Source: an uncultured Prochlorococcus sp. (GTDB lineage: Bacteria > Cyanobacteriota > Cyanobacteriia > PCC-6307 > Cyanobiaceae). From it: a stretch of DNA of 64,000 bases. Position 1 is the first letter of the stretch; each line of letters opens with the position of its first letter. The stretch lies in assembly GCA_902521995.1 (NCBI GenBank), contig CABYTO010000005.1:1-64000 (forward strand), read 5' to 3'. The position numbers were made by a program, and so were the translations under genes. Of this stretch, positions 18,734 through 19,908 are shown piece by piece. The notes below the pieces were generated by a model. That model was not told the DNA's origin. It worked only from the letters and a program-made list of their open reading frames with translations, and searched no databases.

Positions 18734-18995
18734 ATTAAATCTTCTTGACCTGTAATTTTATTTTACTAAAAACAAGATGAATTAACTATTTATATTTTCA
18801 AAGATGACGCTCATTCAACAGAAGTCAATAAATAAATCCTACTAATCCTTCTGCAATTTAAAAATCTTAATTAAATTTACTCGTTACACAAAAATCTTGT
18901 TTCATTAACTAAAATTGAATCAGATTTCATAACATTATTTTTAATACAGATATCAGAACGTATTAATTTTAAAAATATAGGCTAAAAAAGATAAA

Positions 18996-19694
18996 TTGCT
19001 GAATTTTTTTGTACTAAAAAGTGTTTTTCTAATAATATTTGATACAGTAAAAAATATATGTAATAAAACATTGACTTTTAAATTTAAAAGAAAACGTATT
19101 TTATTATCTGAAAAAAATAAAAACTCTAAAGCAATTGGTTATGCTAGAGCTACTAATAACGAATATGAATATTTAGAAGAGCAAATAAAAATTTTGAAAG
19201 ATGAGGGTTGCAGTTTAGTGTTCTCTGAATTTATAAGTTTAGATGAAGAAATCAAACCCCAACTCAATAAAGCTATAAATTCCTTATCAAAAGGCGATCA
19301 ATTAATAATAACTCAGCTTGATCGAGCATTTAAAAATAAAAAAGAATGTTTGATGACAATAAATAAACTTATTAATATGGATATACAATTGCGAACTTTG
19401 ACTGGTTTTTTTGCTGCCAATGAATCTTCTAATTCAAATTCTTCAATTTTTAAGATTTTATATGAATTAGATAATTTAGAAGAAAAAAGCTTAGGTGAAA
19501 GAAAAAAAGAACAACTATTACGCAGAAAATTATCTGGAAATAATTTGGGAGGCAGGCCCAAAATAAGTCCTTTAAAAGAATCTTTAGTAATCAGATTGCG
19601 TAATGAAGGATATTCATATCGATCAATCAGAACACAAACTGGAATTGCATTATCAACAATTAGGAGAGTGATTTTAGAGGGAGAATTAACATAA
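18996..19694 (+). CDS. Serine recombinase (resolvase/invertase)-family protein with substituted active-site residues and C-terminal HTH
   Basis: AIGYARATNNEYEYLEEQIKILKDEGC, GDQLIITQLDRAFKNKKE, GRPKISPLKESLVIRLRNEGYSYRSIRTQTGIALSTIRRVI; no ATG upstream of the catalytic-like domain, so the exact start is uncertain. Confidence 0.8.
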   Translation: MLNFFVLKSVFLIIFDTVKNICNKTLTFKFKRKRILLSEKNKNSKAIGYARATNNEYEYLEEQIKILKDEGCSLVFSEFISLDEEIKPQLNKAINSLSKGDQLIITQLDRAFKNKKECLMTINKLINMDIQLRTLTGFFAANESSNSNSSIFKILYELDNLEEKSLGERKKEQLLRRKLSGNNLGGRPKISPLKESLVIRLRNEGYSYRSIRTQTGIALSTIRRVILEGELT

Positions 19695-19695
19695 A

Positions 19696-19908
19696 ATGAT
19701 GAAGAAAGAAATTGAAAATTTAATAAAAGAAAATTTTAAAGATACCGCATTGCGTATTTATGAATTAGATAATGAAGATAGAAAAAGTTTGTTAGCAGAA
19801 TATAGAGAATGGATTATGAATGATTTAGATTTTGAAGAAGTAATGATGCTACCTTATGAAGCATATACTGACAAATTAGATTCTAATTTCTTAGAAGATT
19901 CACTTTAG
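19696..19908 (+). CDS. Small acidic hypothetical protein
   Basis: 70-aa ORF beginning just after the recombinase-like gene; no recognised domain. Confidence 0.65.
   Translation: MMKKEIENLIKENFKDTALRIYELDNEDRKSLLAEYREWIMNDLDFEEVMMLPYEAYTDKLDSNFLEDSL

Follow-up and report, generated by a model that had tools for sequence, protein, structure and literature searches.

RES, a serine-resolvase-family gene of Prochlorococcus, probably encodes a mobile-element resolvase that would have given up strand exchange and that the host would keep as a sequence-specific DNA-binding dimer, acting as an autoregulator or as an architectural protein. Nearly all high-light-type Prochlorococcus have RES at one fixed chromosomal site, and purifying selection is stronger on its helix-turn-helix (HTH) than on its catalytic domain, the latter still being constrained. 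A first-pass annotation of the letters had suggested a domesticated DNA-binding protein that no longer recombines DNA. This idea gains from the distribution and synteny of the gene, from the drift between Thr, Ile, Ala and Ser at position 10 and from the fixation of Lys45, and further from the selection on the HTH, the loss of catalytic residues in relatives which keep the HTH, and the conservation of candidate binding sites. If true, this would be a clear case of an element recombinase turned into a host DNA-binding protein, with exact sites to test. A literature search found no published experiment on the RES gene. The window, that is the whole stretch of 64,000 nucleotides that was analysed, contains the following features:

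18899 to 18961, no strand assigned: candidate operator A, a region of GTTCY and RGAAC half-sites, degenerate here, with AGAACGT kept at 18955-18961
19010 to 19028, no strand assigned: candidate operator B, TGTACTAAAAAGTGTTTTT here and TGTTCTATAAAGTGTTTTT in relatives
19034 to 19073, forward strand: most conserved upstream block (86-91% column identity), probable promoter or leader up to the start codon
19071 to 19694, forward strand: RES gene, serine-resolvase-family protein of 207 aa with the probable start TTG at 19071 (Pfam, HMMER, AlphaFold2/Foldseek, orthologue alignment)
19131 to 19541, forward strand: resolvase catalytic domain (PF00239; Pfam E=2.2e-15, residues 46-182)
19152 to 19154, forward strand: Thr codon at the Ser10 nucleophile position (Thr, Ile, Ala or Ser in orthologues; gamma-delta alignment)
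19254 to 19256, forward strand: Lys codon at the Arg45 position (Lys in all 45 same-genus orthologues; gamma-delta alignment)
19332 to 19334, forward strand: Lys codon at the Arg71 position (Ser, Ala, Leu or Arg in divergent orthologues; gamma-delta alignment)
19548 to 19691, forward strand: linker and C-terminal HTH (GGRPK...SYRSIRTQTGIALSTIRRV; dN/dS 0.06)
19696 to 19908, forward strand: small ORF of 70 aa, directly 3' of RES in same-genus genomes

Fold, active site and chromosomal setting

The forward-strand frame is open throughout from 18996 to 19694, and the protein had initially been taken to begin at 18996. This start had to be given up, as the DNA 5' of 19071 is conserved in the orthologues, yet not as an open frame. 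The start-codon column at 19071, on the other hand, is conserved: most orthologues have TTG there, L022 and L033 have GTG and L041 has ATG, so the protein most likely begins at the TTG at 19071.

The assignment to the serine recombinases holds, as Pfam, HMMER and AlphaFold2/Foldseek all identify a full-length small serine resolvase, and the RES protein is the sole match to PF00239 in the window's genome. In phmmer searches its full length aligns with Gin, Sin, Tn3 and gamma-delta resolvase, and the AlphaFold2 model (mean pLDDT 81.4, pTM 0.55) has the resolvase fold, with Tn3 resolvase on site III and Sin on site II as the best PDB matches in Foldseek (probability 1.00). The Pfam match to HTH_7 is weak (E=0.0018, under its cut-off); taken together, Pfam, phmmer, AlphaFold2 and Foldseek give a resolvase catalytic fold followed by a C-terminal HTH, in agreement with the earlier view that this HTH looks intact.

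Alignment with gamma-delta resolvase bears out the three substitutions that had been read by eye, Ser10 to Thr, Arg45 to Lys and Arg71 to Lys, and the retention of Arg8 (19146), Asp67 (19320) and Arg68 (19323). The catalytic set of Ser10, Arg8, Arg45, Arg68 and Arg71 is thus incomplete, with Arg8 and Arg68 present and the other three replaced. A displaced Ser nucleophile was considered and rejected, as the alignment shows no adjacent serine (the motif reads YARATNNEY). The Thr at position 10 recurs in 32 of the 45 same-genus orthologues, the window's included, and gives way to Ile (11), Ser (1) or Ala (1) in the remainder. Position 45 is Lys in 45 of 45, and position 71 is Lys, Ser, Ala, Leu or Arg across orthologues.

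At E<=1e-20, a homologue is present in 204 of 266 genus genomes and in 82 of the 87 that are at least 90% complete; the figures refer to homologues, some few genomes having distant copies only, and absences weigh little since the genomes of the genus are mostly incomplete single-cell assemblies. Named loci of the RES lineage include P. marinus MIT 9201 and MIT 9107, both high-light strains. The order of the locus is gltB, YCII, lipA (opposite strand), RES, the small ORF, a bla-like gene, nlpC and psaL, constant as far as the loci reach, and the whole neighbourhood is common to 44 of the 45 inspected orthologues, the exception being L041, in which lipA was not found. The first-pass annotation had seen neither transposon nor inverted-repeat context. 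The first part stands, in that the gene lies in a fixed lipA-bla neighbourhood across the genus and the nearby ORFs include no integrase or transposase; the second is incomplete, as conserved half-sites lie upstream of the orthologues. The 70-aa ORF at 19696-19908 is probably co-transcribed with RES. It was dropped as a functional clue, since neither Pfam nor NCBIfam has a match for it and it belongs to a loosely related group of small Prochlorococcus proteins; the same genomes hold weak paralogues of about its size at other places.

Relatives in picocyanobacteria and known systems

Relatives of the RES protein occur in 180 of 400 genomes of the GTDB family, and most of those outside the RES lineage retain Ser10, Arg45, Arg68 and Arg71. 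Of 69 representatives, 43 have an intact active site; the other 26, 10 of them from the high-light lineage, show a change in one or more of the five catalytic residues and keep the HTH. In low-light copies such as L062, L063, L069, L141 and L146, most catalytic residues are gone and the end GGRP...SYR.IR.QT...LSTIRRI is kept. Parsimony of the catalytic state on a quick tree gives 10 changes, only 3 of which are forced by strongly supported branches; as several rows also sit on long branches, the number of independent losses is uncertain.

Intact relatives are often found near tRNA-Ser, tRNA-Cys or tRNA-Asn and carry repeated half-sites just 5' of their own start. Several have a tyrosine integrase homologue within 10 kb, and some have AlpA or primase-like homologues. 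At L131 (1-7476), a unit of 5,943 bp with repeated ends (99.3% identity over 1,533 bp) combines a family member whose active site is intact with a phage-type integrase (PF00589) and an AlpA-like protein (PF05930); its layout resembles that of a mobile element in circular or tandem form, an appearance that redundancy in the assembly might also produce. L131 sits in a MAG titled Euryarchaeota archaeon TMED129 and is probably a picocyanobacterial element that was binned wrongly. Within the genus, G375 has two further catalytically intact copies (L043 and L044) near tRNA-Asn and tRNA-Ser with integrase homologues close by. At L071 (3895-4533), two neighbouring open frames make up a split family member, with an intact copy some 6 kb away. 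A phage or plasmid origin by direct match was not upheld, all such matches being below 60% identity; the matches listed were invertases and plasmid recombinases.

A small serine recombinase is reported to lie often beside a new integrase at tRNA-Phe and tRNA-Cys in Prochlorococcus and Synechococcus, and this island gene might resolve insertions (PMC10187409). Matched by description and not by sequence, it is probably of the family of the intact RES relatives, with which it shares the organisms and the kind of tRNA association. It is an island gene, whereas the RES copy lies outside such islands, is genus-wide and is catalytically altered.

Of the characterized systems, Sin of staphylococcal plasmids (PDB 2r0q, 3pkz) resembles the RES protein in fold and domain order, ranks second in Foldseek and is matched by HMMER, but has a Ser nucleophile and recombines, while RES is a fixed chromosomal gene with Ser10, Arg45 and Arg71 replaced. 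Tn3/gamma-delta resolvase (TnpR) shares the family, the fold, the size and repeat sites close to the gene; RES differs in its altered active site, in lying outside any transposon and in an HTH that is far from that of gamma-delta (30% identity in the gamma-delta row). Gin is the best PDB match by sequence, but in comparison with DNA invertases of the Gin/Hin type RES has changed catalytic residues, and no invertible segment was noticed. At regulatory site II, Sin binds head-to-tail half-sites and is catalytically inactive; it binds direct as well as inverted repeats of its half-site and joins two site II copies via its DNA-binding domains (PMC2428073). In Tn3 resolvase, the S10A mutation abolishes catalysis, but recombination still proceeds with S10A domains placed at sites II and III (PMC9943657). 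These two examples imply that a chemically dead resolvase could keep a binding and bridging role.

Candidate binding sites near RES and tRNA genes

In the orthologues, two stretches of upstream DNA are conserved, corresponding to about 18894-18953 and about 19004-19073 of the window; column identity in the second reaches 86-91%, equal to that of the coding DNA that follows. Upstream regions of the family contain 466 GTTCY/RGAAC half-sites against 110 in mononucleotide shuffles, which is to be read as enrichment and not as a probability because many of the loci are closely related. The half-site consensus is about TGTTCTAWWAA in the high-light loci and about TGTTCCAATAA in the others; the window's own upstream half-sites are partly degenerate and among the more degenerate copies. 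No crossover site was identified among the half-sites upstream of RES orthologues, and a sigma-70 promoter scan returned fewer sites than in shuffles. With both the binding domain and the candidate sites conserved, RES is a candidate DNA-binding regulator as far as sequence conservation can suggest. A palindromic 35-bp operator pattern with 2 mismatches was discarded as a regulon screen, its matches, the best ones aside, being no commoner than those of the reversed control; a weak palindrome was seen between psbA and aroC (L191).

For a genome-wide view, the relative G270 was read in stretches with a matrix built from the high-light loci other than L039, G270's own locus; as the training sequences were chosen by their GTTC/GAAC core, only the flanking letters and the phasing are independent. 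The top cluster (score 88.7) is an array of six copies phased at 12 bp near tRNA-Phe (L280 1501-1580, equivalent to G270:316067-316146), in which two AGAACA/GGAACA triplets lie between a 64-aa ORF and the tRNA gene. The RES promoter comes second with 36.2, and three shuffles reached at most 31.9. High-scoring clusters are few in the whole genome of G270, which fits a dedicated regulator better than a nucleoid protein.

The 12-bp-phased direct repeat AGAACAGTATATAGAAC, as in the DNA upstream of RES, is found again next to tRNA-Asn in many of the genus genomes. Arrays of AGAACAGTATATAGAACA and AGAACAGTAATTAGAACA or their variants, usually about 79 bp apart, adjoin tRNA-Asn in 14 of 19 readable loci, with similar spacing in these genomes and variable intergenic DNA around them. 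The exact pattern AGAACAGTNNNNAGAAC occurs in 89 of 121 genomes, the reversed control pattern having only a handful of matches, and falls on tRNA-Asn arrays, some RES promoters (by position: G397, G345, G459), island sites and a recurrent coding position, which was set aside as irrelevant. Matches to AGAACAGTTRAAAGAAC were rejected as sites, as they lie within an open frame of 519 codons and are hence coding. A three-copy phased array is present in only 9 of 121 genomes. The window's genome has a single match to AGAACAGTNNNNAGAAC, of coding-type sequence, and its contig C8 ends inside the tRNA-Asn stretch, so that the array is not seen there. Phased AGAACAGTTTT arrays also occur in the gene-variable stretches L285, L289 and L282, and in L285 and L289 a common motif, AAGCCCGT.ATTGATACTGAAAAATAGG, adjoins the array and may mark an island boundary. 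LexA is a less fitting binder of the repeats, their spacing being presumably unlike that of the cyanobacterial LexA box.

These sites allow a mechanism to be proposed. The high-light lineage would have captured a tRNA-associated resolvase at the lipA locus, which would then have lost catalysis and kept its binding of res-type half-sites. The RES protein would repress or tune its own promoter via the upstream half-sites. It would also bind the array of phased direct repeats that adjoins tRNA-Asn, and a small number of further places, its binding at tRNA-Asn possibly silencing, insulating or bridging the DNA that flanks an integration hotspot. What ties the tRNA arrays to the RES protein is identity of motif. 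It is conceivable, though distinctly improbable, that RES regulates itself only, the arrays at tRNA-Asn and tRNA-Phe being remnants of old res sites which are unbound or bound by the island's own resolvase. In its favour, active family members lie near tRNA genes, and the arrays are sporadic except at tRNA-Asn; against it, the spacing of the tRNA-Asn array is similar in 14 of the 19 readable genomes, in surroundings that vary.

Prochlorococcus exchanges genes through tRNA-linked islands, the control of which is little understood. A dead resolvase could, by analogy with Sin, serve as a synapsis or insulation protein, with dimers on the phased tRNA arrays joined via their DNA-binding domains and controlling the islands. 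This elaboration is likewise distinctly improbable; if true, the protein would hold or silence hotspots and so set which islands enter, leave or are expressed in high-light Prochlorococcus.

Selection and the fate of catalysis

By the Nei-Gojobori method, on pairs with dS of 0.2-1.5, dN/dS among the 45 same-genus orthologues is 0.226 for the catalytic part versus 0.057 for the linker plus HTH. Because of these selection data, a regulatory or architectural protein is favoured over a decaying relic, that is a former mobile-element resolvase without function which drifts and has yet to be deleted. The lost catalytic residues, the erosion or splitting of some relatives (L067, L071) and five near-complete genomes without a match would fit such decay; it is made very improbable by the open frame and the neighbourhood conserved across the genus, by the constraint on both domains (0.06 in the HTH, 0.23 in the catalytic domain), and by upstream DNA that is as conserved as coding DNA in small genomes prone to losing unused genes.

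An active recombinase with a Thr nucleophile and Lys in place of Arg45 and Arg71 is just as improbable. Points in its favour are the hydroxyl of Thr, the retention of Arg8, Asp67 and Arg68, the selection on the catalytic domain and the one orthologue with Ser10. Against it, position 10 is Ile or Ala in orthologues of RES and Leu in the related L165, Arg71 turns into Ser, Ala or Leu, and S10A suffices to abolish catalysis in Tn3 resolvase (PMC9943657). The regulatory or architectural reading is preferred to Thr catalysis on account of the Ile and Ala at position 10. The orthologue with Ser10 is L025, which has Lys at 45 and 71; given this orthologue and the purifying selection on the catalytic domain, some residual chemistry is conceivable.
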